Origin: a virus
IMG/VR virus record: IMGVR_UViG_3300032053_000212
Span: 1-38,060 of that record
Reading direction: 5' to 3' (one strand)
DNA length: 38,060 nt
The translations under genes were made by a program, and so were the position numbers. The first letter of the stretch is position 1, and the number at the start of each line of letters is the position of its first letter. Below the pieces are notes generated by a model. It was not told the origin of the DNA and searched no databases. It saw only the letters and a list, made by a program, of their open reading frames with translations. Of the stretch, positions 3,046-31,249 are shown piece by piece.

Positions 3046-3473
3046 TGTCTAGCAACCTTCAAAATGTCGCGGAAGCTATTGGTGCCCTTGCTAGTACTGT
3101 TACGGGCATTGATCATGTTGAGACACGTCCAAAGCTTACAGCGGGTAGAAGCTTGCCTGCTATCTTTGTAACCTATGATGGTTTCAAACAAGGTCCTATG
3201 ACATTCAAGTCGTGGGAGATGCTCTATACATTTCAACTAACTTTGTATCTAGCCATTGATGGTCGTAACATAGAGGCCCAATGGGATAGCCTCCTTGATC
3301 TTTCAAATAAAATAGCGGATACTTTTCGTAGCAGCTTTACTTTGGAAGGTGCGGCCTTTAAGGCCGTAATTGTTTCAGGGAGGGCCATTATTGATCTACC
3401 AAGAACACCTAATCAGAAGTCCACTTGGATGGGACATCGTTTTCAGCTCGAAGTTACGATGGAAGAATCCTGA
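3045..3473 (+). CDS. Tail terminator protein
   Basis: A 142-residue alpha/beta protein starting in a TAATG overlap with the gene before it. An N-terminal helix, an ETRP...LPAIFVTYDGF strand pair (about 26-45), a long YTFQLTLYLAID strand (about 60-70) and a second helix with DSLLDLSNKIADTF (about 80-95) match the fold order of tail terminators such as lambda gpU, which cap the tail tube and join it to the head. Its place before the chaperone genes is typical. Confidence 0.6.
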   Translation: MSSNLQNVAEAIGALASTVTGIDHVETRPKLTAGRSLPAIFVTYDGFKQGPMTFKSWEMLYTFQLTLYLAIDGRNIEAQWDSLLDLSNKIADTFRSSFTLEGAAFKAVIVSGRAIIDLPRTPNQKSTWMGHRFQLEVTMEES

Positions 3474-3492
3474 AGCCCGATAAGGAGTAATC

Positions 3493-3909
3493 ATGTCTGT
3501 CAAGAGTACAATCGTCCATAAGCTCGATATCCCTCATGAGGCTGGAGAGTGGATCGAATTCAGAGAACTCGGCTGGCGCACCTTGGAACTTGCCCGTGAG
3601 ACTAAGTCCCGCGCGGCCCTTCTAGGCTTCCGCGACCTCGGACCAGACTTCCTCAAGTCCCTTACCCCCACCGAGGATGCGACTACCGACGCCCCTGAGA
3701 CTGTTCAGAAGCCTGTTGACACGTATGATATGGCAACTCTTCTTAAGGCTTCGATATCTGCTTGGTCATACACAGCTCCTTGTAATGAGGCCTCCATTGA
3801 CTCCCTTGACCAGGCCACAGCCACGTGGGCCTTTGAAGCGATCATCCAGATCCACTTCCCCACGGAGGACGAGTTGGGAAAAGTCTCAGAGCCTTCGAAA
3901 GAGCTCTAA
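3493..3909 (+). CDS. Tail assembly chaperone, short form (gpG-like)
   Basis: A 138-residue product starting at ATG after AAGGAG. It sits directly between the tail terminator and the tape measure gene, where gpG-like chaperones coat the tape measure before tail polymerisation. The protein is helical and acidic at its end. Its last nine codons follow a slippery GGGAAAA site, so a fraction of ribosomes should leave this frame before its TAA. Confidence 0.8.
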   Translation: MSVKSTIVHKLDIPHEAGEWIEFRELGWRTLELARETKSRAALLGFRDLGPDFLKSLTPTEDATTDAPETVQKPVDTYDMATLLKASISAWSYTAPCNEASIDSLDQATATWAFEAIIQIHFPTEDELGKVSEPSKEL

Positions 3910-4160
3910 GGGGAGATTCTAATACAGTCCCTATAGACTGGATCGTTGGCCAAATGTGTGAGGAGTTTAGATGCACTCCAGACATAGCGGTAGACCTTCC
4001 CTTTGGAATATCTTCTAGGATTATGGCTCTTCGTAATTATGCCCAGACGCGTTCTTTGATAGAGAACTCTGATCCTAAGGATCTTAAGCATACCCCAAGT
4101 ATTGAAAAGGTTCTGCTTATTCAAGCCAAGCTAGATATGGGTATAGAGGAAGAGGCCTAG
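3493..4160 (+). CDS. Tail assembly chaperone, frameshifted long form (gpG-T-like)
   Basis: The -1 frame is open from the slippery site through 4160, so ribosomes that slip at 3876-3882 make a fusion of 130 residues from the first frame and 92 from the second, about 222 residues. The downstream part has no need of its own start, although an internal ATG exists at 3954. The T-like part contains a helical FGISSRIMALRNYAQ segment. In lambda-like phages the G and GT forms bind the tape measure in a fixed ratio, and the tape measure gene follows here with no gap. Confidence 0.85.
3876..3907 (+). promoter_or_regulatory. Programmed -1 frameshift signal: slippery heptamer plus hairpin
   Basis: G GGA AAA at 3876-3882 is in the correct X XXY YYZ register relative to the start at 3493. 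Five bases downstream is a hairpin: AGAGC (3888-3892) pairs with GCTCT (3903-3907), continued by CTT (3893-3895) with AAG (3899-3901), leaving a bulged A3902 and a CGA loop. Spacing and stem fit a stimulatory element. Confidence 0.85.
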
Positions 4161-7100
4161 ATGCCTGGTTACACAGGCGAAATTCTTATCACCTCAGCTT
4201 GGGATGGCAAGGGGGTTGCTGCTGCCCAAGCACAGCTGAGAGGCCTTGAGTCTACCGTTAGGTCTAATCAGGCTCGTATGACCACTCTAGGTCAGGGACC
4301 TGCGACTGCCGCAAAGGGCGGCATGACTGATTGGATTCGCAAGAATCAGCTTGGCCTCCGTATGGTAGGTCATGACGCCCAAATGGTGGGGCAAACAATC
4401 TTCCGTTGGGTTACTATTCCACTAGGCCTTGTCAGTGTAGTTACTGCCAAGATGGCTTATGACTTTAATACCTCGATGACTAAGGTTCAGGCCCTTACGG
4501 GTACCTCTACAGAGATGATGAAGACCTATAATGAAGAGGTCCTAAGGCTGTCCAAGGCTACGGGTGTTATGCCCACAGCTGTTTCGGAGGGCTTGTACTT
4601 CATTGCCTCGTCAGGCTTTAAGGGTGCTTCGGCCTTGAAGATCCTTGCAGAGTCCACGAAGCTTGCTGCTACTGGTATGGGCGATATGATGTTCATGGGT
4701 CAGACACTGACGTCTGCCATGACAGCTTGGGGTGAGAAGACCCTTAGTGCTGCAGAAGCCGCTGATACCCTTGTGGCGGCCGTTCGAGAAGGTAAAGCTG
4801 AGCCAGATGAATTCTCTCGTTCCCTTGGTCGTGTTATCCCTGTTGCTTCTCAGGTAGGAATCAAGTTCCAAGAGGTGGCGGCTTCAATTGCTGCTATGAC
4901 CAATATTGGTTTGAGCGCTCGTATCTCCACCTTTGCCTTGCGTACCCTCTTGACGTCCTTCCTGAAGCCTCAGAAGCCTCTTATTGATGGTTTGAAGGAA
5001 GTTGGGCTTACAGTACCTAAGATTGTAAAGACCATGACGACTGATGGCTTCTTGCCTGCCATGAAGAAGATCTACGACGCTACCCATGGTAGTGCAACGA
5101 AGATCACTCGGATGTTCACTCAGAATGCTGGTACGGCTTTCCTTGCTCTCTTCCGGCAGTACGATAAGACTAAGGGTATCTTTGATAGGACTATTGGTAG
5201 CCAGGGTGACGCCGCTAAGGCCTTTGCCCTCGCAATGGAATCTCCTGCGGCTAAGTTCCGTGTAGCTTTGGCTAACTTGTCTGCAGCTGCAATTGTTCTG
5301 GGTAGTAAACTACTTCCTATATTTACCCAAATTGTTAGCTGGGTTAGTAGACTCGTTGACAAGTTTAATAACCTTTCATCGAGTACTCAAGGCTGGATTG
5401 GGAAAATCTTAATTGCTGTCTCTGCAATTGGTATACTTGCTAGTGTTGTTGGTAAAGTCGCTACCATTATGACCGGGGTTGCCGCTTTTAAGTTTATGGT
5501 CCAGGGGGGCTTCTCCGGTACAGGTATGATTGCCGAACAGGCTCGAGTGGCTCGTGAGGCTGCGGCGGGCGGTGCAGAGGTTGCAAATACAGGCGCCACG
5601 AATGCCAATACTGCAGCCAAGAATGCCAACGCCGCTGCTACGATTAGACAGATTGCAGTTAAAAACGGTCTAATTACTGCTAATATAACGGAGGCAACTA
5701 CCCTCACAGCTGGTGAGGCTGCTTTCTATAGTGCTCAAGTTGCTCGTGAGGCTGCGGTAGCCCGTACTGAAGCTGCTACAGCGGACCTTATGCTTACTGA
5801 AGGGCGTCTTGTTATGGCTCAAGGGGCTGTAGTTACTACTACTGCCGCTGAGACTGATGCCCTTAATGCTTATATTGCGGCCCAAGCTCGAGCTGCCGTA
5901 GTTGCAGCTGAGGCTAGTGCTGCCCAAACTAACTTGGCGACGTCCACGGTTCTTCTAGAAGGTACCCAGACTCGACAGTCGGCAAGCTATATAGCAGGTC
6001 TACGAGCACAAGTTGCTGCTACTGCTATGCTGGCTGCGGATGCTAATGCGGTTGCTGTAGAGCAGGGTGCCGCAGCCATGACAGCCTCTCGAGTACAGGC
6101 CATGGCGAAAGGCAACCTTGTTGCTGCCGAAGCAAATGCAGCACGCTCTGCTACGGGGGTAGCTACGGCCGCTACGGCCGCTGGGGCTGCCATAACGCTA
6201 GAGAAGACGGCTATAGATACTTTAGCTGCTTCTTCTAAAAAGGGTTTGACAGGGACAATTGCAAGTGTTGCCTCATGGCTTGGTCCTTGGAAGGCTGCGG
6301 GCCTTGTAATTGCTGCAATTGGGGCCGCTTTGCTAGTAATAAAGCTGAACGCCGATGCTGCTATGAATGCCATTGCTACCCCTGATATGATGAAGAGTAC
6401 TAAGGCCGCTATAGAAGGCCCTGACGGCCGACAGTTGCAAGAGTGGGCTGATAGAGCTCTTGGTGGGCGACTCGTTGTTAAGGATGGCGAGCTTGTATGG
6501 CAGCCTCGGTATTCCGTTAAGCCCATAGATGTTTCCACCTTGTCAAAGTGGGCTCATACTACTGCCGTTGAAGCCCGAAGGAAGCTTGTAGAAGCCGATA
6601 TTGAAGAGCAACGAGTCTATGCTAAGGTTAGTGCCCGCGAGGCTATGCGTGTTGCTAAGGAAGCTGAACTTGGAATTGGCTTCATAAAGTCTCAGAAGGC
6701 TTATGCAGGAAGGCTTGGGCCTGAGGCTCAGGCGAATGCAAAGGCTCAACTAGCCAACCTTGAGTACACTGCTAGAACCCAACGCGCCCTTTATGATGAG
6801 CTAGTAGGGAAGGCTGAAGGTCTAGCAGGACGTCTTGCACGAGCCCAAGGGAAGACTGAGGTTCTTGTTATCAAGGCGAAGCTTGTAGATATGGGTGATA
6901 GTGTTAAAAAGTTTGAGGGGCAGCTCTCAAAGGTTCGTGCCTCTATGAAGAAGGCTACTCCTGGCAGTGACCTCTATCTCAGACTCCAAATGAATGAACA
7001 AGAAATCCTCGACAAGCTTGCACGTTTAAGGTCCTCTATACAACAACTGCGCAAGGAAAACAAGCCTATCCTTCTTGAGGCTCGTGTCGAGTCTGCCAAG

Positions 7101-7886
7101 AAGAACGTTAAAACCCTTCAGCAACTCGTTACCCGCCTTAAGGCTCGCGATGCTCGAAACAATCTTCCATTCCAGGCTGATACAAAAGCAGCTATGGCCA
7201 AACTAAAAGCCCTCAGAGAACAAAGGGATAAGCTTAAGGAGAAACTTGAGATTGAAGTAGGCGTAAAGGGTCCAAGAAAGACTGCCCTAGGCCTTCCTAA
7301 TTGGATACGCGAAGGTAGTGGCACCCCTACTAAGACTGCTACCGTTCAAATTGCTGCTAATGCTGGAGACGTCTTTAAGAAGGCCCGTACTGTAACCAAC
7401 GCTCTAGCAATTGTAGGGGGCCTTACTCCAACTCCTAAAATTGGTGCCGATATCGGAGGGGTAACTAACGGCGTAACTAATGCTAGGATAGCCTTGGATG
7501 CTATTAACGGTAAGACCGTTACAACCTATATCAATGAGGTTACGAGACCTCGAGATCAAGCCTTCGGTGGCGTATACAATCTGACCTCTGCTACAAACTT
7601 CCGTGCAGGTGAGGCGGGCCCTGAAGTCGCCGCCTTCTTCCCACTGAATAATCCTACGCGGTCATCTTCGTTGTTGGCACAACTAAATGCTCAATTTGGT
7701 GCAACAGGCAATATGCCTGGCAGCGGTGGAGGCTCAAGGACAGTTCATTATCATTCACACGTCACCCTCCCACAGGGTATCGTCGTAGATGATACCGAAC
7801 GCTTCGCTAAGCGGTTGACGCCTTACCAGGCGAGCCAACTTTCTGTCGCCCAACGCCGTCGGCAGAGAGGAGTAGCAACTCTTTAA
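4161..7886 (+). CDS. Tail tape measure protein (TP901 family)
   Basis: The 1241-residue protein begins directly after the chaperone stop. A hydrophobic segment lies at about 78-98, followed by a TP901-type core domain (about 100-330). More hydrophobic stretches occur near 375-395, 412-440 and 700-730, then a long helical, Lys/Glu-rich coiled-coil region (about 760-1030). Residues 460-690 are extremely alanine-rich, made of short AREAA/AATA-like units. The C-terminus has the FRAGEAGPEVAAFFP-type motif often seen at tape measure ends. With the usual 1.5 Angstrom per residue the tail would be near 185 nm. It sets tail length and likely helps DNA cross the membrane. Confidence 0.95.
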   Translation: MPGYTGEILITSAWDGKGVAAAQAQLRGLESTVRSNQARMTTLGQGPATAAKGGMTDWIRKNQLGLRMVGHDAQMVGQTIFRWVTIPLGLVSVVTAKMAYDFNTSMTKVQALTGTSTEMMKTYNEEVLRLSKATGVMPTAVSEGLYFIASSGFKGASALKILAESTKLAATGMGDMMFMGQTLTSAMTAWGEKTLSAAEAADTLVAAVREGKAEPDEFSRSLGRVIPVASQVGIKFQEVAASIAAMTNIGLSARISTFALRTLLTSFLKPQKPLIDGLKEVGLTVPKIVKTMTTDGFLPAMKKIYDATHGSATKITRMFTQNAGTAFLALFRQYDKTKGIFDRTIGSQGDAAKAFALAMESPAAKFRVALANLSAAAIVLGSKLLPIFTQIVSWVSRLVDKFNNLSSSTQGWIGKILIAVSAIGILASVVGKVATIMTGVAAFKFMVQGGFSGTGMIAEQARVAREAAAGGAEVANTGATNANTAAKNANAAATIRQIAVKNGLITANITEATTLTAGEAAFYSAQVAREAAVARTEAATADLMLTEGRLVMAQGAVVTTTAAETDALNAYIAAQARAAVVAAEASAAQTNLATSTVLLEGTQTRQSASYIAGLRAQVAATAMLAADANAVAVEQGAAAMTASRVQAMAKGNLVAAEANAARSATGVATAATAAGAAITLEKTAIDTLAASSKKGLTGTIASVASWLGPWKAAGLVIAAIGAALLVIKLNADAAMNAIATPDMMKSTKAAIEGPDGRQLQEWADRALGGRLVVKDGELVWQPRYSVKPIDVSTLSKWAHTTAVEARRKLVEADIEEQRVYAKVSAREAMRVAKEAELGIGFIKSQKAYAGRLGPEAQANAKAQLANLEYTARTQRALYDELVGKAEGLAGRLARAQGKTEVLVIKAKLVDMGDSVKKFEGQLSKVRASMKKATPGSDLYLRLQMNEQEILDKLARLRSSIQQLRKENKPILLEARVESAKKNVKTLQQLVTRLKARDARNNLPFQADTKAAMAKLKALREQRDKLKEKLEIEVGVKGPRKTALGLPNWIREGSGTPTKTATVQIAANAGDVFKKARTVTNALAIVGGLTPTPKIGADIGGVTNGVTNARIALDAINGKTVTTYINEVTRPRDQAFGGVYNLTSATNFRAGEAGPEVAAFFPLNNPTRSSSLLAQLNAQFGATGNMPGSGGGSRTVHYHSHVTLPQGIVVDDTERFAKRLTPYQASQLSVAQRRRQRGVATL

Positions 7887-8311
7887 TGGCTACTGCAATT
7901 ACTCTTGGCCACGGCGGTACTCCTGCCAGCATCAACCTTAATAATCAGTCGACCCACTTTGTTGGTGAGTCAGGATTCAACTACGGCGGTCCACAGACCA
8001 CTTGGGACGAGGCTATTAGTTACTCCGGTGGCGCCTCGACACAAGTAAACGTGCAGCGCAAGCACCTCATCCCGGTGACGATCCCCATGTGGGTGGTCGG
8101 CTCCAGCGTGAGCAACCTGAACACCCTCTTGAGTACGCTGTGGACGTTGGTCGATACCTGCACCAACGCCGCCCCAGGCACCCTCCAGGTCGCCAGCGAG
8201 ACGGCCATGAACATCGTATACTCCACGCGCCCCGAGGATCTCGAGCGCAATACTGTCTATGAGCTTCAATTCCGTGCCTACTTCACGTTGGTCTTGATGA
8301 GGCAACCTTGA
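7886..8311 (+). CDS. Distal-tail-like protein, stand-alone copy
   Basis: A 141-residue protein in a TAATG overlap with the tape measure gene, where distal tail (Dit) proteins are normally encoded. Key features are a PQTTW motif (about 36-40), VTIPMWVVG (about 63-71), a Leu-rich helix and a NIVYSTRPE...RAYFTL C-terminal strand pair. About 60% of its residues by eye recur at the C-terminus of the next gene. The first 150 bases are AT-richer than the rest of the gene, which turns sharply GC-rich near 8040. It probably forms the ring at the tail tip. Confidence 0.65.
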   Translation: MATAITLGHGGTPASINLNNQSTHFVGESGFNYGGPQTTWDEAISYSGGASTQVNVQRKHLIPVTIPMWVVGSSVSNLNTLLSTLWTLVDTCTNAAPGTLQVASETAMNIVYSTRPEDLERNTVYELQFRAYFTLVLMRQP

Positions 8312-9975
8312 CGGCTCCCTGCGTCATCTCTGCCGGCACGGTTCTCGAGGACTTCGCTGACTACACCCAGTGGACTCAGGACACGGGTGCTTACGCACCG
8401 AAGGCCAGTTACATATCAGAGACGATCGGCAAGATTGGAGTCCAGCTATCACTTCAGGCGACAGCGGCCAGCACGACATACTACTTCTACACGAAGACCA
8501 TCAACCAGTCGTTCAACGTCTACAAGGCGAGTATCGAACTGCGAGTTTTCACCCATGCAGGATCCGTCGAGGGAGGGGCAGCAAGGCTGAGCGTCGAGCT
8601 TTCCTCGACCACAAACTGGTCGAAGAAGTTCAGCTATGTCACTACGTACTGCCTTAAGGCCGGCTGGACGCACATCCGCATCATCGAGAACGAGTGGACG
8701 AACACTGGTGGCGAGTCGTGGTCGAACACAATGCTGCGCTTGCGGATTGGAGCGAAGCCGCTCGTCACGGGCATGATGCCGAAAATCGATCTGGACTCGC
8801 TCATCGGTGGCATCCAGACCACGCCGGCCGTCTGCCTCTCGTTCTACGACACCTTCCGCACCCACGTCACCGACTGCCTCCCGCTCGTTGCTGCCAGGGG
8901 CTGGAAGGCGAGCTTCGGCATCGACCCCTCAGACCTGTGGTCCGACACGCGCTACACCCAGGAGGACATCGACGCCTTGAAGGCTGCGGGATGGTGGCCG
9001 TTCTTCGCGGCTAACCAAGTCGAGACGTTGAACATGGACGGCTACGGCTATAGCGGCCTCTCCCACACGAGCGTCACGATAATGGGCGCACGAGTCATGG
9101 ATGCGGCAATCACCGCCAACCTGCACTACTTTATGACGCACGGCTATGGTGGCAGTGGCAGCGTGTTCATCGGCGGCGGCGGCAACGTCAACCGAGACGA
9201 GCTTCAGGAGCTCTATCGGGTGCTGGAGAAGCACCACTGCAAGATGCTCTTCCAGACGCCAGCGACAGCGCTCACCACCTCTCCTGGCTACACTCTCAAC
9301 GCACATCCCATCGATGACCCATATCGAGTAGCCCAGTTTGCGCTCGGTGGGGAGACTCTTGCGACGGCGAAGTCCTACGTCGATTGGGCCGTATCTCACG
9401 GCCAGATGGTCAACTTCGATGTGCAGCAGTTGGTGGCGAGCAGCCCTGGAACCTGGGACTGGCTGGCCTCCGACTACGTCGCCCTGCTCGACTACATCGA
9501 ATCGCTCGGCGTGGCCGTGATGACGTTCCCTGAGTGGTATGCCTTCGCCGCTGATTTCCCGGTCTACGCGCCGACGCTGGACTACCCGGCGCACGTCACC
9601 CTCGGTAATATTAACCTTAATGACCAAATCAACTACTTTGTCGACTCTGTAGGTATGAATCTCGGGCAACCCCAAACTACTTGGGAAGAGACCGTTAGTT
9701 ACTCAGGGGCTATCAATCAGCAAATAAATGTCAGTCGCAAATCACTTGTCATGGTGACGATTCCTATGTGGGTCGTCGGCACCTCAATCTCCAACCTCAG
9801 TTCGCTGCTCAACGCCCTGTGGGTCGAGGTAGACAAGGCGAGCAACACCCTCGCGGTCGATGGCGAGATTCACAACATCGTCTACTCGACCAGACCAGAG
9901 ACGCTGGAGAGGGATAATGTCTATGAGAACCAGTACCGCGCGTACTTCACACTGACTCTGATGAGGACTCCCTAA
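8308..9975 (+). CDS. Fusion: beta domain + deacetylase-like domain + second distal-tail domain
   Basis: A 555-residue protein that starts at TTG in a TTGA overlap, with GAGG five bases upstream. Residues 1-165 look like a beta-sandwich carbohydrate-binding domain. Residues about 172-405 resemble a polysaccharide deacetylase/NodB-type barrel: a first strand CLSFYDT in place of the usual TFDDG, later HYFMTHGYGG (about 271-280) and MTFPEWYAF (about 408-416). The metal-binding triad is not clearly intact, so it may bind rather than cut sugar. Residues about 430-555 repeat the preceding Dit-like protein. It is likely a tail-tip component that touches cell-surface glycans. Confidence 0.7.
   Translation: MTAPCVISAGTVLEDFADYTQWTQDTGAYAPKASYISETIGKIGVQLSLQATAASTTYYFYTKTINQSFNVYKASIELRVFTHAGSVEGGAARLSVELSSTTNWSKKFSYVTTYCLKAGWTHIRIIENEWTNTGGESWSNTMLRLRIGAKPLVTGMMPKIDLDSLIGGIQTTPAVCLSFYDTFRTHVTDCLPLVAARGWKASFGIDPSDLWSDTRYTQEDIDALKAAGWWPFFAANQVETLNMDGYGYSGLSHTSVTIMGARVMDAAITANLHYFMTHGYGGSGSVFIGGGGNVNRDELQELYRVLEKHHCKMLFQTPATALTTSPGYTLNAHPIDDPYRVAQFALGGETLATAKSYVDWAVSHGQMVNFDVQQLVASSPGTWDWLASDYVALLDYIESLGVAVMTFPEWYAFAADFPVYAPTLDYPAHVTLGNINLNDQINYFVDSVGMNLGQPQTTWEETVSYSGAINQQINVSRKSLVMVTIPMWVVGTSISNLSSLLNALWVEVDKASNTLAVDGEIHNIVYSTRPETLERDNVYENQYRAYFTLTLMRTP
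9595..9972 (+). repeat. Second copy of the distal-tail domain (protein-level duplication of 7886-8308)
   Basis: Aligned by eye, the two copies share INLN, FV, PQTTW, SYSG, VTIPMWVVG, SNL, NIVYSTRPE, LER, VYE, RAYFTL and LMR in the same order with little gap, near 60% identity. DNA similarity is lower, so the duplication is not recent. Both copies change from AT-richer to GC-richer DNA part-way through the domain. Confidence 0.85.
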
Positions 9976-12900
9976 TGGCAGTTCCGACCGTAACAGGATT
10001 AGATCCGGCTAGCGGCCCCGAAGGGACGCTCGTCGTCATAACCGGTACCGACTTCCTCGAGGATGCCTCGGCGGTTCACTTCGGCACGTACTCAGCAGGC
10101 CTAGAGTATTCCGTCATTAGCGATACCCAGATCTCCTGCATCGTTCCGGCAGGCACCGGCACGGTGACCGTAAAGGTCACGACCTCTGGCGGACAGAACT
10201 CCTCAGGCGCCTCGTTCATCTATTCGAGCTATGAAGGCGGCTCCGGTTCAGCTCCCACGGTCACCAGTGTGACCCCGAACAGCAGTGCCTATTTCGATGG
10301 CCACGGTACCGATCAAGTAGCTATAGTTGGTACTGGCTTCACTACCGCCAGGGCAGTCTACTTCGGCCCCACCCTGGTGACCGCTGTACAGGCGACCTTC
10401 AACGTCGTGAGTTCGACGCAGATCACCGCGTGGGCGCCGCAGGGCGAGGCCGGCGTGCAGGCCTACGTCTTCGTGGAAACGAACTACGGCACTAACTCCA
10501 ACCTCGACACAGCCAACGATTTCATGTACCCGGCGAGCGCCGTGCCGACCTTGACCAGCGTGGTGCCGGCCAGCGGCTTCCCTGGCGACGAAATCGTCCT
10601 CACCGGCACCAACTTCAGCGAGGCGACCTACGTCAGTTGGGGCACCCTGTACGCTGGCTTCCGCATCGACTCCTCGACCGTGATTCGCGCCACCGTACCA
10701 GGCGACCAGACGTTCCTTGGCAGCGCGGTCAACGTCTACGTCAGCAACCCTTGGGGGATCTCCGCGGATACCCGCACGTTCACCTACGGCGCCCTGGTGG
10801 CGAAGAACCTGAAGACCAGCGTCAGCCTGTCGGACGGCTTTGTCCTCGGCAAGACTCCCAACGACAGTTGGGGCGTCAAGGGATCGCCCTTCACGGTCAC
10901 GGCCACGCTCTCGGCGGCCTACAGCGGGATGCCTAGCGGATCGGTTGACTCGACGTGGTATCGTCTTGACAATGGAAACGACGTCAAGTACGTCTCGGGA
11001 TTCTCGGTCACCGGCGCGGGTTCGCACAAGCTCGAGTACTGGTCGGTCGGCAAGGATGGCTACGTCGAGCCGACAAACGTCGGCTACATCAACATCGTCG
11101 GCACAAAGACCATCAACCTTTCCGCGACGCCGACGATCGGTGCCATCGTCTTCTCCTGGGATCCCATCGGCATTCCAGGCGAGTCCTATCTGGTGTTCAT
11201 CGAGGCCGACCCGAATCCCGCGCCGCCACCGCCGGCGTACGCCACCACCGGCACGAGTCTCACCTATCAGTTCGACTACGGTTCCTCGGCGGTGTACTGC
11301 CGGCTCAAGACCGTCGATCCTGATGGCACCATCTCGGGCTACTCTGCCACGGTCGGCCCGGTGTCGTCGCTTCAGAGCGTCGCCACCGACATCGCTGACG
11401 ATGCCATCACCGGCGCGAAGATGGCTCCCAGCATCATGCCGCCGCACATCGAGAGTTCGTTGCCGGTGCTGCCCAACGACGAGTACCCGACCGGCTCCTT
11501 GGTCTATCTGACCACCGACAAGCGGCTCTATCGCAACGACGGCGGCGGCCCGAACACGAACACGCACACCAACAAGGCGACGTGGTACGACCGCTCGGGA
11601 TCGGGTAACAACGGCACACTCAACAGCTTCGGATACACCGAGGCCAGCGGCTGGGACGGCGTCGGCATGGGCGGCGACCTTTACGCGCTCCAGTTCGGAG
11701 GCACCGACGACCGCGTGAACCTGACGCCGATCCAGCAGTTCACCGACAAGGTGTGGACAATGGAGTTCTGGGTGCGGAACCTGAACGCCGCAGCGACGCA
11801 GTTCCTCGGCTTCTTCGGGCAGGCGGGAGCGACCACCTATGTCGGACTCAACATTTCTGCGGGGAACCGCCCGTCGATGGGGGTCAAGAGTACCTCGGGA
11901 ACGACGCTCTTCTCGCCGTCCTCTGGCTACTATCCCTTCTACGACGGCCTCTGGCATCACGTTGTCGGCTGCGGCGACGGGACGTATTTCCGCTGCTACT
12001 TGGATGGTGTGCAGTGCGGGACCGATACAGCCTTCGACGGGGGCACTTTCAACACCGCTGACATAGCGACCCTCGGACGCAGCGAGTTGGCGACTCCCGC
12101 AGCCTACTTCACGGGCAGCATGGCGGCGGTGCGCGTCTATGACCGCTGCCTGAGCGCAGCCGAAGTCGCCGCTCAGAGTGCGCTGGGACCGACGAGTCCG
12201 AACTACTCCACCTCAAGCCTCATCCTCGACCTGAACGCGAAGCGTGCGCTGTTGAGCAACGCCTGGACCCCGGTAATCGACGCCGCCGAGATGGACGGCA
12301 TCATCTCGGGCAACCTCATCCAAGGCAACAGCATCACCGCCGGCCAGATGTCAGTTGGGGCTATCGGGGCTGGCGAAATCGCCGCCAACGCTGTCTACGC
12401 CAAGCACCTCATCGTGGCCGACTACGAGAACCTCATCCCGAATGCCAACAGTGAGGTCGTCCCGACCTACACGAGGGACGCGAGTATCACCAGCGCCGAC
12501 GTGGAGTTCCGCGGCGTCGCCACCGGCGACCCCTACCGAGGACTCAACCAGCGCCGCATCTCCGGCATCGCGGCCGGCACCGTACAGACGATCGCCCTGT
12601 GCAACCCGGTGCCGTGCAAGGGAACCGACTGGTTCCACTTCTATGCCATGACGAAGTGCCAGTCAGATCAGAGTCCTTGGGGCGGCCGGGTCCAGATTGT
12701 CGGCATGTCGTGCAACTCCTCGGGCGTGTTCACCGACGTGGACAGCGCCGAGTCGAGTTGGCAGTCGAGTACTACTTACACCGAACGCACAATCGACTAC
12801 AACGTGGCTGCTCACGGCGCGACTGTCACCTACGTCCAAGCGCGGCTCTCCGCGAGTTCGGCTTACAACGTGTACGTCGATTTCGATGAACTCCTGTTCC

Positions 12901-14174
12901 GCAAGAAGGTCGGCGGCACGCTCGTCGTGGAAGGCTCCATCGTTGCCGATCACATAGAGAGCAACACCCTGGTCGCGACGAAGATAAGTGGCGGCGAGAT
13001 ATACGGCGGCAAGATCACCGGCGCCACTGTGAACGTCGAGAGCGAGCTCTTGATGGGCACCGCCACCGAAAACGGCACCATCACCTTGGCCGGTAGTGCC
13101 GGGAAGACGGGCCTACTGCGAACCACGTCTGTGGCAAATGTCCCGCGAATCGAACTTCAGAGTGGGGCTTACGCTGGCTATCTCAAGCTGTTCACTGGTC
13201 TGGAAACTGGCGCGGAGGGCAAGCTGTATGTCACCGGCAACGCCACGTCGGGGACAGTCGCTCTTGAGAGTCCTGAGTACAGCACCTATGGCGGTATTGA
13301 CCTCTCCCTCTACGATTCCACCACCTCCAAGTACGCTCTTTTGGGTGGGGCATCCAGGGACGACAACACGACTACGCGGATTCGCGTTGACGCAGATGGT
13401 AAGTACATCGAACTTCAGTCTCCGACCATCGATGTCGGTAACGAAACGGTTCAGCCCACAGCGGTCAACGTCTACGGCCCAGTCTTCATTCCCAAGTTGC
13501 AGCCGTCCTATGACCACGCCATCTTTGACGAGTGCGACTTCATGCTCCCAGCAGGAGCCTACATCGACAAGACGGTCGGGCGCTCCTGGTACATGCAGGA
13601 GTTCGGTGACGCGACGCCGACGATGACCAGTATCGCGGTCCAAAACCATCCCGGCGTAGCGAAGTTCACGACCGGCACCAGTTCGACCACGGGCTACCAA
13701 GTCCAGACGAGTGCCCTGGCGATGGAGGCCATCGTAGGCGACTTCTGCGAGTTCGTCTTCAGGCTCCCGTATCTCACTTCGACTCAACAGATGGTCTATT
13801 TGGGCTTCATGGATCAGTTCTCTGGTTCTGCTCCGACCAAGGGCGCCTATGTGCTCATGGGATACCACTCGGGCGATGGTGGATATAGGTTCGTCGCCTC
13901 GAGCAACGCCACGGCTGGGACTACTCGTGTCACTGCCGCCGTTGGCGACACGGGCGTCTGGTGGAAGCTTCGCATCGAGATAGGGGCGACCTTGCACCCG
14001 ACGTTCACGCTGTTGAAGAACGGTGCAGCTACAGCTTGGGAAGAATACGAAGTAGCCACCGCCGTCAGTGCTAGCTACGGTCACGGTTTCTGCCAGTTTT
14101 CAGGTTCCGCGACTCCACAGAACAACCTTGATATGGACTACATGAACTACTATCTGGTCCCGAGAGATCGCTGA
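9975..14174 (+). CDS. Large tail-tip adhesin with IPT/TIG repeats and LamG-like domain
   Basis: A 1399-residue protein in a TAATG overlap. Three IPT/TIG beta domains lie at about 4-87, 93-188 and 189-273, each starting PT-x-T-x-(L/V)-x-P and containing ITGTDF/VGTGF/LTGTNF. A further beta region (about 275-480, fibronectin-like in part) leads to a LamG/concanavalin-like domain (about 530-735) with WTMEFWVRN and DGLWHHVVGC. Next comes a fibre-like ISGNLIQGNSITAGQ...GEIAANAV stretch (about 775-810), then beta-rich segments, and a final ligand-binding-like domain (about 1185-1399). It is the likely receptor-binding protein. The DNA is markedly GC-rich relative to the tape measure gene. Confidence 0.8.
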   Translation: MAVPTVTGLDPASGPEGTLVVITGTDFLEDASAVHFGTYSAGLEYSVISDTQISCIVPAGTGTVTVKVTTSGGQNSSGASFIYSSYEGGSGSAPTVTSVTPNSSAYFDGHGTDQVAIVGTGFTTARAVYFGPTLVTAVQATFNVVSSTQITAWAPQGEAGVQAYVFVETNYGTNSNLDTANDFMYPASAVPTLTSVVPASGFPGDEIVLTGTNFSEATYVSWGTLYAGFRIDSSTVIRATVPGDQTFLGSAVNVYVSNPWGISADTRTFTYGALVAKNLKTSVSLSDGFVLGKTPNDSWGVKGSPFTVTATLSAAYSGMPSGSVDSTWYRLDNGNDVKYVSGFSVTGAGSHKLEYWSVGKDGYVEPTNVGYINIVGTKTINLSATPTIGAIVFSWDPIGIPGESYLVFIEADPNPAPPPPAYATTGTSLTYQFDYGSSAVYCRLKTVDPDGTISGYSATVGPVSSLQSVATDIADDAITGAKMAPSIMPPHIESSLPVLPNDEYPTGSLVYLTTDKRLYRNDGGGPNTNTHTNKATWYDRSGSGNNGTLNSFGYTEASGWDGVGMGGDLYALQFGGTDDRVNLTPIQQFTDKVWTMEFWVRNLNAAATQFLGFFGQAGATTYVGLNISAGNRPSMGVKSTSGTTLFSPSSGYYPFYDGLWHHVVGCGDGTYFRCYLDGVQCGTDTAFDGGTFNTADIATLGRSELATPAAYFTGSMAAVRVYDRCLSAAEVAAQSALGPTSPNYSTSSLILDLNAKRALLSNAWTPVIDAAEMDGIISGNLIQGNSITAGQMSVGAIGAGEIAANAVYAKHLIVADYENLIPNANSEVVPTYTRDASITSADVEFRGVATGDPYRGLNQRRISGIAAGTVQTIALCNPVPCKGTDWFHFYAMTKCQSDQSPWGGRVQIVGMSCNSSGVFTDVDSAESSWQSSTTYTERTIDYNVAAHGATVTYVQARLSASSAYNVYVDFDELLFRKKVGGTLVVEGSIVADHIESNTLVATKISGGEIYGGKITGATVNVESELLMGTATENGTITLAGSAGKTGLLRTTSVANVPRIELQSGAYAGYLKLFTGLETGAEGKLYVTGNATSGTVALESPEYSTYGGIDLSLYDSTTSKYALLGGASRDDNTTTRIRVDADGKYIELQSPTIDVGNETVQPTAVNVYGPVFIPKLQPSYDHAIFDECDFMLPAGAYIDKTVGRSWYMQEFGDATPTMTSIAVQNHPGVAKFTTGTSSTTGYQVQTSALAMEAIVGDFCEFVFRLPYLTSTQQMVYLGFMDQFSGSAPTKGAYVLMGYHSGDGGYRFVASSNATAGTTRVTAAVGDTGVWWKLRIEIGATLHPTFTLLKNGAATAWEEYEVATAVSASYGHGFCQFSGSATPQNNLDMDYMNYYLVPRDR

Positions 14175-15904
14175 TGGCTTACACGAACCTCAAGGACGGC
14201 GGCCTGCACTGCAAGATCGGGGAGACGGCCTGGGGCACTGGGGGCACCGACGCCATCGATCTCGTCCACGAGCTCCAGTTCGACTCGACCATCAACGGCA
14301 GTGGTTCGGCGTCCTTTTGGATCGAGGTAGCAGATCCGTTTAGCGTCGGTATGTCCTACCTTCGTCATGGTTCGCGGGTGAACATCTACCACACCGTGGA
14401 CGCCGTCACGACCTACCTGTACAAGGGCTTCATCATCAGCGACCCGCGGCGCGCGATCGCTGCCCAGAACGCACGCGTGTTCGTGGAGTGCGGCGGCGTC
14501 TTGGAGGTTGCCAAGTGGCGCACCGACTGCGCCTTCCTCTTCACCGATTGCGATGCCTCTGAGTGGGTCATTAACAAGCGCAACAACAAGGTCTACAGCG
14601 TTTCCAACGACGACTGCCTCGAGATCTCCGTCGAGAAGGGCGAGAAGGTTCCCAGCAACGGTATGGGCGGCATCGTCGGCTACGTCGCCTACCTGGGCGC
14701 ACAGTACATGGGTGGCGCGGACACCAACCAGCGCAACCTCATCAAGCGCATCGACGGACAGGTGACCACTCGGCTGGGCGACGATATGCGTGCCAAACTC
14801 TTGGTTGCCGATTCCTACACCGACTCCCGCGACATCTCCTCCTACTCGTCCATCAAGACGTGGGGAGACGTCGAGCCAGAGCGCCATCTAAACCAGAAGT
14901 ACTTCGATAGCAACTCCTTCTGGAATCCCTCTGGAGTAGGCAGGCGGTATCTCGCCCTGGCTCTGTACTGCCTCGACGTGACTGGAGGCAACAGCCTCAT
15001 GTCTGCGGATCGTTCCGTCCGTATAGACTACCCTCGCGTCTACACGGGCACCATCAGCCGCCGCATCGATGAGGCGATGGTCGAGATCGCTGACTGGGTG
15101 GGCCTGCATCAGGCTGCCGTGTCGACCACTATCAGGAGCGTCATCCCCAACCTCGTAGCGCGTCCCTACTGCGACCCGGTGAGCGCTATCAACCAGTTCG
15201 GCGTCCAAGCGGAGATCCTTGTCGAGTGGGGCTGGTGGCCGAGCCGCAGCACCAACCAGATCGAGTTCCGAGCCCGTGAACTCCTCATCGGAGAGGCCGC
15301 TCGCATCGCCTCCGGTCGTTGTTACACGATCGACTCCACCGTTCCCGGCATCTCCTGGGACGTCCGTCCGCATCCTGAAGACGGCATGGGCGATACACGC
15401 GCCGTACGCTTGATCTACGGTATGCTAGGACGCCATTCAGACTTTCCCGCTGGAACGCCGGCTGCCGCCATCGGGCCTGGAGATCCCGGCTTCAGCAACG
15501 TGCGTGGCCCGTTCCAGGGTTCGACGGCCTGTGTGACGACGGTCGACTTCAGCGGTCGCAACTTCTCTGGTGAACACGCCCGCCGCATCGCCAGGAATCT
15601 GGGCCGCCAACTGGGCAACGCGGAAAAGTCTACCGGCACGGTAATCTCGAACGTGACCGAGCCGGGTTCCTCTGGACTCATCAAGTCCTCCAACTCCACC
15701 GCCTTCCCGTGGCCGTATATTCAGGGCGGCGACTTCGTGAAGTGTAGTCAGGACGCCGACGTGAAGCCCCTCGTGGTTACCCGAGCGAGCGTGAACGTGG
15801 ACACAGAGACGGTGGAACTCGAAGTAGGTATGCCCGCGGATACATTGATGCGACAGTTCGAGGCCGCTGGTAGCGTAAAGCGTGCGAAGCTCCATCGTAG
15901 GTAG
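14174..15904 (+). CDS. Tail hub / minor tail protein
   Basis: A 576-residue protein in a TGATG overlap with the adhesin. The N-terminal half has the beta-rich start of tail hub (Tal/gp27-like) proteins: ELQFDSTINGSGSASFWIE, then a Tyr-Lys-Gly-Phe-Ile segment near residue 80. The C-terminal half ends with strands TRASVNVDTETVELEVG (about 540-556), common in proteins that compute a local coordinate or hub ring. Cysteines are scattered, with no metal-binding pattern. No peptidase motif was seen. Its position as the last large tail gene before the holin-like gene supports a baseplate/tip role; the exact family is not certain. Confidence 0.6.
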   Translation: MAYTNLKDGGLHCKIGETAWGTGGTDAIDLVHELQFDSTINGSGSASFWIEVADPFSVGMSYLRHGSRVNIYHTVDAVTTYLYKGFIISDPRRAIAAQNARVFVECGGVLEVAKWRTDCAFLFTDCDASEWVINKRNNKVYSVSNDDCLEISVEKGEKVPSNGMGGIVGYVAYLGAQYMGGADTNQRNLIKRIDGQVTTRLGDDMRAKLLVADSYTDSRDISSYSSIKTWGDVEPERHLNQKYFDSNSFWNPSGVGRRYLALALYCLDVTGGNSLMSADRSVRIDYPRVYTGTISRRIDEAMVEIADWVGLHQAAVSTTIRSVIPNLVARPYCDPVSAINQFGVQAEILVEWGWWPSRSTNQIEFRARELLIGEAARIASGRCYTIDSTVPGISWDVRPHPEDGMGDTRAVRLIYGMLGRHSDFPAGTPAAAIGPGDPGFSNVRGPFQGSTACVTTVDFSGRNFSGEHARRIARNLGRQLGNAEKSTGTVISNVTEPGSSGLIKSSNSTAFPWPYIQGGDFVKCSQDADVKPLVVTRASVNVDTETVELEVGMPADTLMRQFEAAGSVKRAKLHRR

Positions 15905-19352: not shown

Positions 19353-19597
19353 TAGGACCTCTTACTAATAGTAATATCTGGTACCTCTCCGTGGGGGATC
19401 TTCTTACGGTCTATCTTACGTCGTTCTTCGTGCCCACAAACCATGCACCTGAGTACAATAGTCTTTTGGTTGAAACGTTTACAACCCCAATAATGTATGT
19501 GGTTGGGGTCAAGCGCCGTATCAGCAAACAGGGCCTTCGTCTTGTAAAGAGTCCCTTTAGATTTCTTCACCTTTCCAGCTTCTTTAGGCTCCCCCAT
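19352..19597 (-). CDS. Small basic zinc-finger-like protein
   Basis: I chose the ATG at 19597 (81 residues), preceded by GGAGG at 6 bases, over one 30 bases upstream without a site. The gene therefore begins 31 bases inside the 3' end of the polymerase gene in another frame. A lone Cys near residue 49 and CMVC near 61-64 suggest a partial zinc site with nearby His residues. The protein is Lys/Arg-rich, consistent with nucleic-acid binding, and its overlap with the polymerase implies linked expression. Function unknown. Confidence 0.65.
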   Translation of the reverse strand: MGEPKEAGKVKKSKGTLYKTKALFADTALDPNHIHYWGCKRFNQKTIVLRCMVCGHEERRKIDRKKIPHGEVPDITISKRS

Positions 19598-21861
19598 CTT
19601 GTACCTCCCTTCACTTCGATACTCCATGCAAATGGTGCATCTGATAGTGGTGCGTTATCAACCATCTCTTCGTAGATAGCCTCTATAACTTCTTCTTCAT
19701 ACCCTTTCTTAACTTCGAAAAGGAGGCTGTCATGGACAGTTACTAATATGTGGGCAATCTCGGGGTCTAGCCTGGCGTGCAACCTTGTTAAGGACATCAG
19801 GTTAAGATCGGATGCGGCACTTTGGATTGGGGCGTTAATTGCTTGTCTCTCAATCTCGTGTTTGTTCTTCTCAGTTACGAGTGCGAATCGACGCTTCCGG
19901 CCAAAGGCAGATTCGATGTATCCCTGCTTGACTGCGAGTCCTTGATTTCTAAGCATCCACTTATGCAAGTCAGGAAATCCCCCAAGAAAGTTATTGAGGT
20001 AACTTTGGGCTTTACGTACAGAACAGTTAAGCTCGCCTTCCGCGAGTGATTTTGCTCCACGTCCATAAAGTATTCCAAAGTCAACGAATTTTGCCCCGTA
20101 ACGTTGATCTTTAGTGACTGGATCATTTGGCCCGAGGCCGAAAATATCTCGTGCGACCCTGGCATGGATGTCTTCTTCATTAGCAAAGGTTTCACATAGT
20201 TTACGGTCTCGAGAATAGTAAGCGGCAATACGAAGCTCCAACTGATTGTAGTCGGCCTCGAGAAGAGTCCACCCAGGCGACGCCACAAAAGCATCGCGGA
20301 TAATGACGCCCGCTCTTGCTGGGATATTTTGTAGATTAGGGTCGCGAGAGCTAAGCCGTCCGGTAACGGTTCCATGGAGAAGGAAACTGGCTCGTATCCT
20401 TCCATCTGCGGAAACGCGCTCAAGGAGCCCCCTTACGTAAGTGGATAGAAGCTTTTGCTTTTGTCTCAGCTCTAGGATCCTGGTAGCAAAGGGATGATTT
20501 AGTTCCGCTAGTTCAACCTTCCCCGTTTTTGTTCCTGCTGGTCGAAGCTTAAGGGATCCATACAAGTAATCTGCAACCTGCTTTGGGGAGTTGGGATTGA
20601 ACTTAGGATTCTGGGTCTCAAGCTGCAGCTCAATAGTTGCTGCAGCGATATCCTTTTCCAACTTCTTCCCAAGGGTCTTTAGGTGGTACTGGTCGATAGT
20701 TATACCGTGATGTTCAATCTCACCGAGGGCGTGGCTGGCAGGCAGCAAGATATCATCATGTATGTGGCGTAACTTGCTCTCGTTGAGCTCCCCAGCCAAA
20801 ACCCAGGCGAGCTTATGCGTGTAGTAGACATCATAAGCGAGGTACTGGTAGAGTTGGTCAACTGGAAGTTCATCTAGTTTCCCCTTTCGTCCCTTAAGAG
20901 CGGAGTCGTACTCTCCTGCCTGAAAGTATCGTCGAGCGAGCGTCTTGAGACCGTGACTACCCTGTCGTTCATCAAGACAGTAATGAGCCAGCATGGTATC
21001 GAAGTCAACATGCCAGTCTATCTGGAGCTGGTGCGTTATGAACTTCCTATCGAACTGCGGCCCATTTTGGGCTACCCATACATTACCCTCAGACTCCATG
21101 AAGTCCTTTAGAACAGCTAAAGCCCCACGATCCCCATACAGCAGATCCCCCACAATGATGAAGATTTCCGTTCCATCGTTAAGGCCCATAACGAGAATCT
21201 CGTCTTCAATCTCATCAAGACCAGTAGTCTCAAGGTCAAGAGCAATATGAGTAGGGGTATGAAGAGCAATCTTACATACCATCTTACGAAGGTCCTCAAG
21301 AGTCTCTACCAACGTATAGTCTGGTGGCGGTTCCTCCTCTTCGTACTCTGTGGGGCATTCGGCGAGCAGCTGGAGGTCACTCATGAGGTCTGGGAAGTAG
21401 TCTGGGGCTCTAAGGACTGCGGCTGGGTGATATGTAGGGATGCAATACACCCCAAGATCATCGATCCAGAGCCTTGCCCCGCGTACCGACATAATACTTG
21501 TAGGGCCATATACAGCAGTCAAAGCCGTAGCCCCTAGAGTAAGAATCTTTGTACAACCTTGCAGCTCTTCCATCAAGCGCTCATTGCAGGCATCAATAGC
21601 AGAGTTGGGGGGCGTATCGTTCTTGGAAGGTTGACAGAGACAAGAGTTCGTTATCCAAACCTGGGTCTCGTCGATGCCGACCTCTTGCAGGAGCTTTCTT
21701 AAAAGGATACCGCTCATCCCAATGAATGGTCTACCATCCTGAACTTCTTGGCGCCCAGGAGCCTCACCTACAATTGCAAGGCCTCCCTTAACACCCGAGC
21801 TGGGAACTAATGGTCGATCGATCAGTGGGCAGGATTCGCAAAAGTCGAACTTGTCACTCAT
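19567..21861 (-). CDS. UDG-exonuclease-DNA polymerase A fusion, copy 1 (glycosylase motifs intact)
   Basis: A 764-residue three-domain enzyme. Residues 1-165 are a family-4-type uracil-DNA glycosylase: four Fe-S cysteines C8, C11, C76, C92 (16-residue spacing as in the family), motif 1 GEAPG (32-36) with E39 and GRPF (43-46), motif 2 H145-P-A-A-V-L-R. Residues about 200-350 are a 3'-5' exonuclease with D209/E211, N266/D271 and Y340/D344. The polymerase has motif A D537, motif B R587, K591, F595, Y599 and motif C H710-D711. No 5'-nuclease domain is present. GGAG precedes the ATG by 5 bases. It likely replicates phage DNA and may excise uracil from it. Confidence 0.95.
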   Translation of the reverse strand: MSDKFDFCESCPLIDRPLVPSSGVKGGLAIVGEAPGRQEVQDGRPFIGMSGILLRKLLQEVGIDETQVWITNSCLCQPSKNDTPPNSAIDACNERLMEELQGCTKILTLGATALTAVYGPTSIMSVRGARLWIDDLGVYCIPTYHPAAVLRAPDYFPDLMSDLQLLAECPTEYEEEEPPPDYTLVETLEDLRKMVCKIALHTPTHIALDLETTGLDEIEDEILVMGLNDGTEIFIIVGDLLYGDRGALAVLKDFMESEGNVWVAQNGPQFDRKFITHQLQIDWHVDFDTMLAHYCLDERQGSHGLKTLARRYFQAGEYDSALKGRKGKLDELPVDQLYQYLAYDVYYTHKLAWVLAGELNESKLRHIHDDILLPASHALGEIEHHGITIDQYHLKTLGKKLEKDIAAATIELQLETQNPKFNPNSPKQVADYLYGSLKLRPAGTKTGKVELAELNHPFATRILELRQKQKLLSTYVRGLLERVSADGRIRASFLLHGTVTGRLSSRDPNLQNIPARAGVIIRDAFVASPGWTLLEADYNQLELRIAAYYSRDRKLCETFANEEDIHARVARDIFGLGPNDPVTKDQRYGAKFVDFGILYGRGAKSLAEGELNCSVRKAQSYLNNFLGGFPDLHKWMLRNQGLAVKQGYIESAFGRKRRFALVTEKNKHEIERQAINAPIQSAASDLNLMSLTRLHARLDPEIAHILVTVHDSLLFEVKKGYEEEVIEAIYEEMVDNAPLSDAPFAWSIEVKGGTRWGSLKKLER

Positions 21862-22045
21862 AGGGTCTCCAACCAGCTTCCTCGGGGTGCTTTATTGAAG
21901 TCACTTGCATTTGGTTGTCATACAAAGAGATGATTGTACCGCAACTGTAGATGCGCCGCCCCTTGAGAGCCGTCTGCTCAGGCCCTGTACGCTCAACGAT
22001 CTCAGCACCGCACCAAGGACAATGCCTAGGAACCTTGATTGACAT
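21854..22045 (-). CDS. Small zinc-ribbon protein between the two polymerases
   Basis: A 63-residue protein with CPWC (9-12) and a single later Cys near residue 35, a likely partial zinc ribbon. It starts within the last 20 bases of the upstream polymerase gene with GAGGAG 4 bases before the ATG, and it overlaps the start of the downstream polymerase by 8 bases. This tight packing makes the two polymerases and this protein one translational unit. It could be a polymerase accessory protein, but nothing in the sequence proves that. Confidence 0.7.
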   Translation of the reverse strand: MSIKVPRHCPWCGAEIVERTGPEQTALKGRRIYSCGTIISLYDNQMQVTSIKHPEEAGWRPYE

Positions 22046-24278
22046 ACCACTCCTCAGGCTTCATTAAGGAGCCCCAACGGTCCCCCACACTAAAATCAAC
22101 TGTGAGCGGTATTTGATCCGCAAAGGGGACCTCTTCTTCGAGTACTCCTTTTATTACTTTAATTATATAGGAAACCTTAGATGGACTCACGTTTAACAAA
22201 ATGGAGTCATGGACTGTTAAGATGATCTCAGCGTCATCAGGGTCTAGGACTTCTTCCAGCCTAATCAATCCAGAGAGACAGATATCCGAGGCCATACTCT
22301 GAATTGGCATATTACTGGCTTTGCGCTCAATGTCTCCGCGATGTTCCGAGAGGATAGCCGGAAAGCGGCGTCTACGGCCAAAGGAAGACTCAACGTATCC
22401 TAGACGAAGCGCTTGGCGTTGCATCTTTCGGATCCATTTCCAGAGTCCGTTAAACTGCTTGAAGTACTCGTTGATGAATCGCTGGGCCTCGTTGGGCGCG
22501 CAATGGAGAATTGATAGCGCAAGCGAGTTAGCTCCGCGACCGTAAAGTATTCCAAAGGCAACATGCTTGGCATGATAACGTTGGATCTTCGTAACCTTTC
22601 CCACGGGAACTTTGTACATCTCGGCTGCTGCAAGGACGTGTGCATCCCCTCCGGACTTATAGATGGCTTGGAGCTTTACGTCTCCACTATACCAGGCAGC
22701 GATCTTTAGTTCCAACTGAGCATAGTCAACCTCAAGAAGAACCTTTCCCGGTGGGGCAATGAAGGCATCCCTAATAATGGCTCCTACAACGACGGGCATG
22801 TTCTGGAGGTTTGGGGCTCGAGAAGACAAGCGGCCTGTTACTGTTGCGTGGAGAAGGAAGTGCGGGTAGATTAGTCCCTTTTCACCTGAGAAGTTAAGAA
22901 GGCCAATAATAAATGTGGACAGGAGTTTGTACTTGAGTTTGTACTCTATAAGGACGTCTACAATAGGGTGTCGTAGGCTCTCAAGTGCCAATTTATCGAC
23001 GCGTCGGTTATCTGAAGGGATTTGTAAGGTGTCGTATAACAGACGCTGGACTTGCTGTCGGGAATTCGCATTGAAAGTCGGGGTACCGTTAGCCTCGCAG
23101 AGTAGCTTATTAAGACCCTCAAGCTCGAGGACAAGTTGCTCACCAGAGAGTCTGAGGTAATCCTGATCAACATAAGCACCTCTCATTTCGATCTGTGCTA
23201 GGGCCCGAGCTGCGGGTATCAGGAGAGTATTATGGATATGAGTTACGTTCTCTTCATCCATTTCCTCTAGAAGAGGGTCAACAAGATTCCAAGTAAAATA
23301 GCAATCGTAAGCCAAGTAGGTGTACAGCAGGTCAGGAGCATACTTAGCCAGGTTTGCCATATCCATATTCGTAGACCAGTTAGGAATGTGGAAGTAGTTC
23401 ATTGCAACAACCTTGAGTGAGTGCCCCCAAGGGCGCTCATCAAGGTTGTAGGACATCAAGAGGGTATCGTACTTAGGCTTGCATTTGATACCATATTGTA
23501 TCTCGAGGAACTTACAATCAAATTGATAGACATTGTGCCCTGCCCAGTTGAGGTCTTCATTCTCGAGAAGATCCTTGATGTGGGGGATCATAGGCTCCGT
23601 TACGATCCAAATATAGTGGGGGCTAGCTGCAATTCCTAAGCAGATAACTGCATCGTCCTGCGCGTCTAAGCCTGTCGTTTCTATGTCGATTGTGTGCAGA
23701 CTAGAGTTGAGTATGTCTATGCAGTCAAAAAGATTATCCACTCCCGATTCATCTTCCACAAGGGTGTACTTGACTTCAGGGAGCTGGTTCCTAGGCCCAG
23801 GAGGCCCAAGTTTCAGTTGAGTGAGATCATCCAATAGTACTGACAAAAGACTAGGATCCCGAACAACTTGAATAGGATGAATTGTGCTGAGGATCCAAGT
23901 TCGATAATCGTCGTCCCATTGCCAACCGTGGCGCTCCCCAAACACCAGAACCCCCTGGGGATGCTGGTGTTGAATTTCATGTATGTGACGCCCACGACAG
24001 CATTCGATGGCCCTATCGATTGTTTGGGAGTCATAAGCCTTCTCCGGGTAGCAGGGGACCTTCGTCGTGACATACAAAGTGTCGGGAGACACCCCGACAG
24101 ACTTTAGAGCCTCACGAAGTACATCCCCGATTTTCCCCACGAAGAGCATCTGGTGGGCGGTCTCATAGTAAGAGGGGAATTCCCCCACAACAGTGTAGCC
24201 ATACTTAACGCCCCTACCAACGACCTTCGGACGGCCCTTAAGAGGGCAGATATCGCAATTAGAGGAATAGGTTGTCAA
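22026..24278 (-). CDS. UDG-like-exonuclease-DNA polymerase A fusion, copy 2 (glycosylase motif eroded)
   Basis: I chose TTG at 24278 (750 residues) because it places the cysteines at 8, 11 and 76 as in copy 1 and has AAGGG upstream; a TTG at 24305 is the longer alternative. Fe-S cysteines C8, C11, C76 and C93 or C94 remain, but motif 1 reads GEFPS (32-36) with E39 kept and GRPF changed to QMLF; motif 2 is H134-P-I-Q-V-V-R. Exonuclease residues D198/E200, N249/D254 and D325 are intact. The polymerase has D518 (motif A, DYAQLELK), K571, F575, Y579 and H690-D691. The polymerase core looks active; the glycosylase may have lost or changed activity. Confidence 0.93.
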   Translation of the reverse strand: MTTYSSNCDICPLKGRPKVVGRGVKYGYTVVGEFPSYYETAHQMLFVGKIGDVLREALKSVGVSPDTLYVTTKVPCYPEKAYDSQTIDRAIECCRGRHIHEIQHQHPQGVLVFGERHGWQWDDDYRTWILSTIHPIQVVRDPSLLSVLLDDLTQLKLGPPGPRNQLPEVKYTLVEDESGVDNLFDCIDILNSSLHTIDIETTGLDAQDDAVICLGIAASPHYIWIVTEPMIPHIKDLLENEDLNWAGHNVYQFDCKFLEIQYGIKCKPKYDTLLMSYNLDERPWGHSLKVVAMNYFHIPNWSTNMDMANLAKYAPDLLYTYLAYDCYFTWNLVDPLLEEMDEENVTHIHNTLLIPAARALAQIEMRGAYVDQDYLRLSGEQLVLELEGLNKLLCEANGTPTFNANSRQQVQRLLYDTLQIPSDNRRVDKLALESLRHPIVDVLIEYKLKYKLLSTFIIGLLNFSGEKGLIYPHFLLHATVTGRLSSRAPNLQNMPVVVGAIIRDAFIAPPGKVLLEVDYAQLELKIAAWYSGDVKLQAIYKSGGDAHVLAAAEMYKVPVGKVTKIQRYHAKHVAFGILYGRGANSLALSILHCAPNEAQRFINEYFKQFNGLWKWIRKMQRQALRLGYVESSFGRRRRFPAILSEHRGDIERKASNMPIQSMASDICLSGLIRLEEVLDPDDAEIILTVHDSILLNVSPSKVSYIIKVIKGVLEEEVPFADQIPLTVDFSVGDRWGSLMKPEEWYVNQGS
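22162..22190 (-). promoter_or_regulatory. Promoter-like site inside the 3' part of polymerase copy 2
   Basis: On the minus strand, GTGAGT, a 17-base spacer ending GGTTTCCTA, and TATAAT. The GGTTTCCTATATAAT string is identical to that of two intergenic promoters in this window. It could add transcription of the zinc-ribbon gene and polymerase copy 1. It is inside coding DNA, so chance or codon constraint is possible. Confidence 0.45.
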
Positions 24279-30169: not shown

Positions 30170-30557
30170 GAGTCACCCGACACTTACTCTCTGGGGACTC
30201 AAAGACCTCGACTGCATATAGCTTTGCGGTTGCAGACAGCTCTGCAGAAGCCCTAATTATCTGCTTCATATCCCTGAATATCCTGAGGGCGATTAGCTCA
30301 GCCGACGGACGCTCAAAGAAGTTGTTCAGATACTCATGATCAAAGGGATCAATTACGTCATTCAAGACCTTCTTCACGGCTTTGAAATCTACCGCAATAC
30401 CGGCTTGATCAAGCTCGACCTCTGTATAAGGCCCAAACTCCGCCTTAACGACCCAACGGTGCCCATGCATTTGAGCACACTTCCCCACATAGTTAACTAG
30501 ATTATGGGCCGCATCAAAGTGACCCTCACCTGTTAGAAAGATCTGTTCGTTATTCAT
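30159..30557 (-). CDS. queD: 6-carboxytetrahydropterin synthase
   Basis: A 132-residue enzyme from the ATG at 30557, which has GAGG 9 bases upstream; an in-frame ATG 21 bases earlier is less well placed. Zinc ligands H18 (FDAAHNL), H31 and H33 (HGHRW) and catalytic C27 (GKCAQM) are present, followed by FDHEYLNNF and a Glu-rich end. It converts dihydroneopterin triphosphate to carboxytetrahydropterin, the QueE substrate. It overlaps queC by 8 bases. Confidence 0.95.
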   Translation of the reverse strand: MNNEQIFLTGEGHFDAAHNLVNYVGKCAQMHGHRWVVKAEFGPYTEVELDQAGIAVDFKAVKKVLNDVIDPFDHEYLNNFFERPSAELIALRIFRDMKQIIRASAELSATAKLYAVEVFESPESKCRVTHGS

Positions 30558-31233: not shown

Positions 31234-31249
31234 CAAGCCTCCTTAACTC

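Follow-up and report, generated by a model that had tools for sequence, protein, structure and literature searches.

A predicted second tail-tip paralogue with a probable pseudo-deacetylase head beside a plain copy in a viral genome

Why would a virus encode the same small tail-tip domain twice in succession, once on its own and once behind a large module resembling a polysaccharide deacetylase? The question is raised by two adjacent genes in the window analyzed here, a stretch of 38,060 bases from one virus record. Our preferred answer, to which we assign a probability of roughly 58%, is that the second gene encodes an accessory paralogue of the “evolved Dit” (distal tail protein) type, in which a glycan-binding head is mounted on a tail-tip docking domain, beside a plain copy that forms the ring.

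Both genes lie on the plus strand within a run of tail genes. The tail tape-measure gene (4161–7886; PF10145 with an E of 2.9e-24, and PHROG tape-measure families down to 5e-46) overlaps, with its stop codon, the start of a gene for a 141-residue protein (7886–8311; copy A). The next open reading frame (8308–9975) encodes 555 residues, and both frames agree with the coordinates and lengths of the sequence-only reading. The longer frame starts with a TTG that overlaps the stop codon of copy A and has a GAGG five bases upstream. A −1 frameshift joining copy A to this frame was considered and rejected, as this frame stays open for just 15 codons when followed back from the TTG, and the overlap contains no slippery heptamer. 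A GATGAGG at the 3′ end of the 555-residue frame is positioned as the ribosome-binding site of the following gene, which encodes a tail protein of 1399 residues that contains three IPT/TIG domains and one LamG-like domain (9975–14174; PF01833, 5.6e-26; PF13385, 4e-22). Next is a conserved tail protein of 576 residues (14174–15904), 49–55% identical in relatives, whose position and size suggest that it is probably the baseplate hub. Family searches (Pfam, PHROGs and others) returned no match for this protein, and it had no relatives among genome contigs, so that no host was found.

Other parts of the window also contain paired or clustered genes. Two tail-tube-like proteins are encoded at 268–1038 and 1051–1497 on the plus strand; by eye, they appear to have a TPFG...YDD motif in common, and the longer one has an extra C-terminal part. 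This pair is kept in related records (3288–4289 and 4349–4780 in L005; 1252–2010 and 2026–2457 in L002). On the minus strand, two full-length family A DNA polymerases are adjacent (19567–21861 and 22026–24305), each carrying a domain of the uracil-DNA-glycosylase superfamily at its N-terminus as well as a 3′-5′ exonuclease domain. Consecutive genes for FolE, a QueE-like protein (called by reading of the sequence), QueD and QueC, also on the minus strand (28884–31236), represent a 7-deazaguanine (preQ0-type) pathway, and DNA modification is possible.

The sequence-only reading had proposed that the 141-residue protein recurs as the C-terminal domain of its neighbor, and BLASTP confirms this: residues 12–141 of copy A align with residues 431–555 of the longer protein at 59% identity over 130 positions (E 7e-48). 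A profile of the 130-residue domain gives two clear matches within the window, corresponding to copy A and to the C-terminal domain of the fusion (copy B, 129 residues, 9586–9972). In the multiple alignment the two copies are 62% identical, being separated by two indels and by 38% of their residues, while the protein of the related record L002 is 65% identical to copy A and 50% identical to copy B.

Profile scans of viral contigs returned six related records from about three lineages, given that this protein has one and the same sequence in L005 and L006 and that both L008 and L009 are similar to L007. Each record has exactly one copy of the gene, of 130–145 residues, and a profile scan found no NodB match in any of the six, several of which are fragmentary. 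The single gene of L002, L005, L006 and L007 is the orthologue of copy A at the equivalent site, between the tape measure and an IPT/TIG tail protein directly 3′ of it, and no deacetylase gene is found there; in L008 and L009 the contig ends inside the gene. Among the window and its six relatives, a second, decorated copy is present in the window only.

The gene that directly follows the tape measure is characteristically that for the Dit (PMC6115969); copy A and its orthologues in the same four relatives occupy this position, and small Dits of 121 residues exist (PMC9128512). From this gene order and size we infer that the 141-residue domain is a Dit. Searches of Pfam, PHROGs, NCBIfam and PDB sequences gave no match of the domain to a known Dit, and comparison of a five-row profile with lambda gpM gave a probability of 0.2%. 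A Pfam L27 match and PHROG matches (E of at least 0.0045) to the 141- and 555-residue proteins were judged to be noise. The five-row model of copy A is poor (pLDDT 42), with a strand-helix-hairpin order; neck and terminator proteins of phages match it at Z 5–6, mixed with ribosomal, kinase and other unrelated proteins, and no known Dit is among the fold matches listed. The Dit-like assignment of the sequence-only reading is supported by position and size; sequence gives no match, and structure contributes a weak, low-confidence topology. The same lack of a sequence match or a reliable fold match to known Dits favors a different assignment, in which the domain is another tail accessory or adaptor domain and the fusion docks elsewhere on the tail. 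We consider this unlikely, though far from negligible; the Dit position in the window and its relatives and the fit to the small Dits speak against it.

The duplication does not appear to be recent. In an unrooted tree, copy A groups with L002 and copy B lies towards L005 (support 0.91), and the two indels (one N-terminal, near GHGGTPA, and one about four residues before TL) are common to copy A and L002 and absent from copy B and L005. Together, these observations suggest that copies A and B separated before copy A separated from L002, its nearest relative. Copy B would then be either an old paralogue that L002 has lost or an acquisition from another phage. Substitutions between the copies (pS 0.72, pN 0.29) fit purifying selection on both.

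The segment of about 426 residues that precedes copy B consists of a β-sandwich resembling carbohydrate-binding modules (CBMs; residues 10–170, 8335–8817) followed by a NodB/CE4-like barrel (residues 171–415, 8818–9552). The N-terminal 427 residues were modeled alone; a joint alignment of the full-length 555-residue protein had put the NodB rows in the wrong place at their ends. In the resulting model (15 rows, pLDDT 62, pTM 0.62), the barrel superposes onto CE4 deacetylases with VIA Z scores of 12.6 (7ax7) and 12.3 (Bc1960, 4l1g). The β-sandwich matches CBM11, CBM15, CBM27 and CBM30 (several with Foldseek E of 4e-5 to 1e-3, and VIA Z up to 10.5), and also CBM2 of the J-1 evoDit (5ly8, E 0.011). 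Both domains together match the HFTV1 turret (E 4.6e-11, Z 16.9). At the sequence level, residues 1–427 align with gp36 of Arthrobacter phage Gorpy, an annotated glucosaminyl deacetylase (BLASTP E 2e-11 in a single comparison) that itself belongs to PF01522 (2.2e-12), and against a profile built from 14 phage homologues the window protein scores 45.1 bits, compared to 10.0 bits for the best of 1,000 shuffles. The barrel is therefore related to the NodB/CE4 deacetylases in both fold and sequence. Both the β domain and the deacetylase-like barrel, as first read from the sequence, are supported by these comparisons, and structure prediction did not refute the barrel.

Homologues of Gorpy gp36 were found in 65 phage records, mostly of Gordonia phages, and are often named minor tail proteins; some of their genes adjoin that of the major tail protein, and others follow lysis and minor tail genes. 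Many actinophages carry this module of CBM and NodB domains in a tail or virion protein, and the HFTV1 capsid turret has it as well. Gp88 of Gordonia phage Mareelih (L018, 4926–7883; 985 residues), encoded between capsid and head-tail genes, starts with the same module and continues for ~530 more residues. A search with the aligned module returned solely a known protein of Gordonia phage Eyre, and no direct relatives of the whole fusion were found in viral or genome contigs. As the fusion has no counterpart in the relatives, constraint on the barrel is not measurable.

In CE4 enzymes, the first Asp of the active site acts as the base, an Asp-His-His triad holds the metal, and the final His serves as the catalytic acid. 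Seven positions are invariant in all 14 phage homologues (Asp180, Asp181, Glu242, His246, His253, Pro288 and His373, in the numbering of the window protein), which are occupied in the window protein by Tyr, Asp, Asn, Tyr, His, Ile and Gln, respectively. An 11-residue insertion lies just before the metal motif. The SFYDT that the sequence-only reading had noticed in place of the usual motif is confirmed, with Tyr180 followed by Asp181, and the loss goes further than was claimed there: the base Asp is replaced by Tyr180 (codon at 8845), one metal His by Tyr246 (codon at 9043) and the C-terminal catalytic His by Gln373 (codon at 9424). A separate HMM alignment gives identical assignments at these three residues. 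With base, metal ligand and catalytic His replaced, the barrel very probably lacks CE4 activity, and its sequence makes a pseudo-deacetylase most likely. An altered or weak metal site is possible, since Asp181 and His253 remain.

These two retained residues, the apparently intact catalytic sites of the homologous phage proteins and the zinc bound by the HFTV1 turret (PMC12494034) could instead indicate an esterase or deacetylase that is still active through a changed site and trims host glycans at entry. The three replacements and the insertion next to the metal motif make this improbable. The earlier suggestion of a lectin-like derivative agrees with the catalytic losses and with a β-sandwich that matches CBMs of known structure; the glycan binding itself is a prediction.

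The loss of catalytic residues, together with the presence of the fusion in one genome only, would also be expected if a tandem duplicate of recent origin had captured a tail module and were decaying, without a function of its own. Such decay is hard to reconcile with a split between the copies that predates that of copy A from L002, with an intact frame of 555 codons and with a pN that is much lower than pS when the copies are compared; we regard it as very improbable.

The accessory paralogue that we favor could work as follows. Copy A, as an ordinary short Dit, would keep the essential ring, and the 555-residue protein would present its β-sandwich and catalytically dead barrel ahead of the docking domain. 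Copy B would anchor this head in the tail tip of the virion, either in a ring common with copy A or in a second ring, and the head would bind host surface glycans reversibly, aiding adsorption. Evolved Dits with CBMs, some of them N-terminal, bind host glycans (PMC9128512) and help adsorption (PMC9128512, PMC7291167), and glycan adhesion has been proposed for the HFTV1 turret, with its two-domain head on the capsid (PMC12494034). Provided that the 130-residue domain is a Dit, the fusion would be a new variant of evolved Dit.

The stoichiometry of the two copies could take either form. The sequence-only reading had proposed a mixed ring, and the coupled TTG start would be compatible with a lower dosage and fewer decorated subunits. 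A heteromeric adhesion ring, in which the TTG fixes an unequal dosage of two Dit paralogues and only some subunits carry the glycan-binding pseudo-deacetylase, is a tentative and rather doubtful proposal. A sub-case of the accessory paralogue contradicts it: copy B may form a complete ring of its own stacked on that of copy A, so that six decorated subunits are always present. Baseplates of p2 and SPP1 contain two Dit hexamers made from one gene (PMC6115969, PMC9863714), and the indels and divergent residues between copies A and B would suit separate rings; their 62% identity would equally permit co-assembly. Stacking is a credible arrangement, short of an even chance.

If the accessory-paralogue reading is correct, the tail tip has been decorated without risk to the essential ring protein, by duplicating it and fusing an adhesive head to the spare copy, and a phage enzyme module has been turned into a probable lectin. 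The locus would also allow heteromeric and stacked Dit rings to be told apart by experiment.

Among the papers searched, none mentions a polysaccharide deacetylase alongside a distal tail protein. Close parallels in architecture are the evolved Dits of Lactobacillus phage J-1 (Gp16), the 936-group lactococcal phages and Deep-Purple (Gp28), which have a CBM on a protein at the Dit position, as is predicted for the window protein; in phBC6A51 and vB_BtS_BMBtp2, the CBM is N-terminal. The window protein differs from these in that its head adds a NodB/CE4 barrel and is carried by a separate, second Dit-like gene that accompanies an intact plain copy. The glucosaminyl deacetylase minor tail proteins of actinophages (Arthrobacter Gorpy gp36, Gordonia Eyre gp26, Angelicage gp24 and others) have the same order of β-sandwich and NodB barrel and are homologous over both domains. 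However, they keep the catalytic residues, and those aligned have no Dit-like domain, whereas the window protein has lost these residues and is fused to one. The closest solved structure over both domains is the HFTV1 turret head protein gp31 (8qpg; matched over 324 residues), which, unlike the window protein, is located on the capsid, binds zinc (PMC12494034) and keeps the DD and HxxxH motifs and the C-terminal His.
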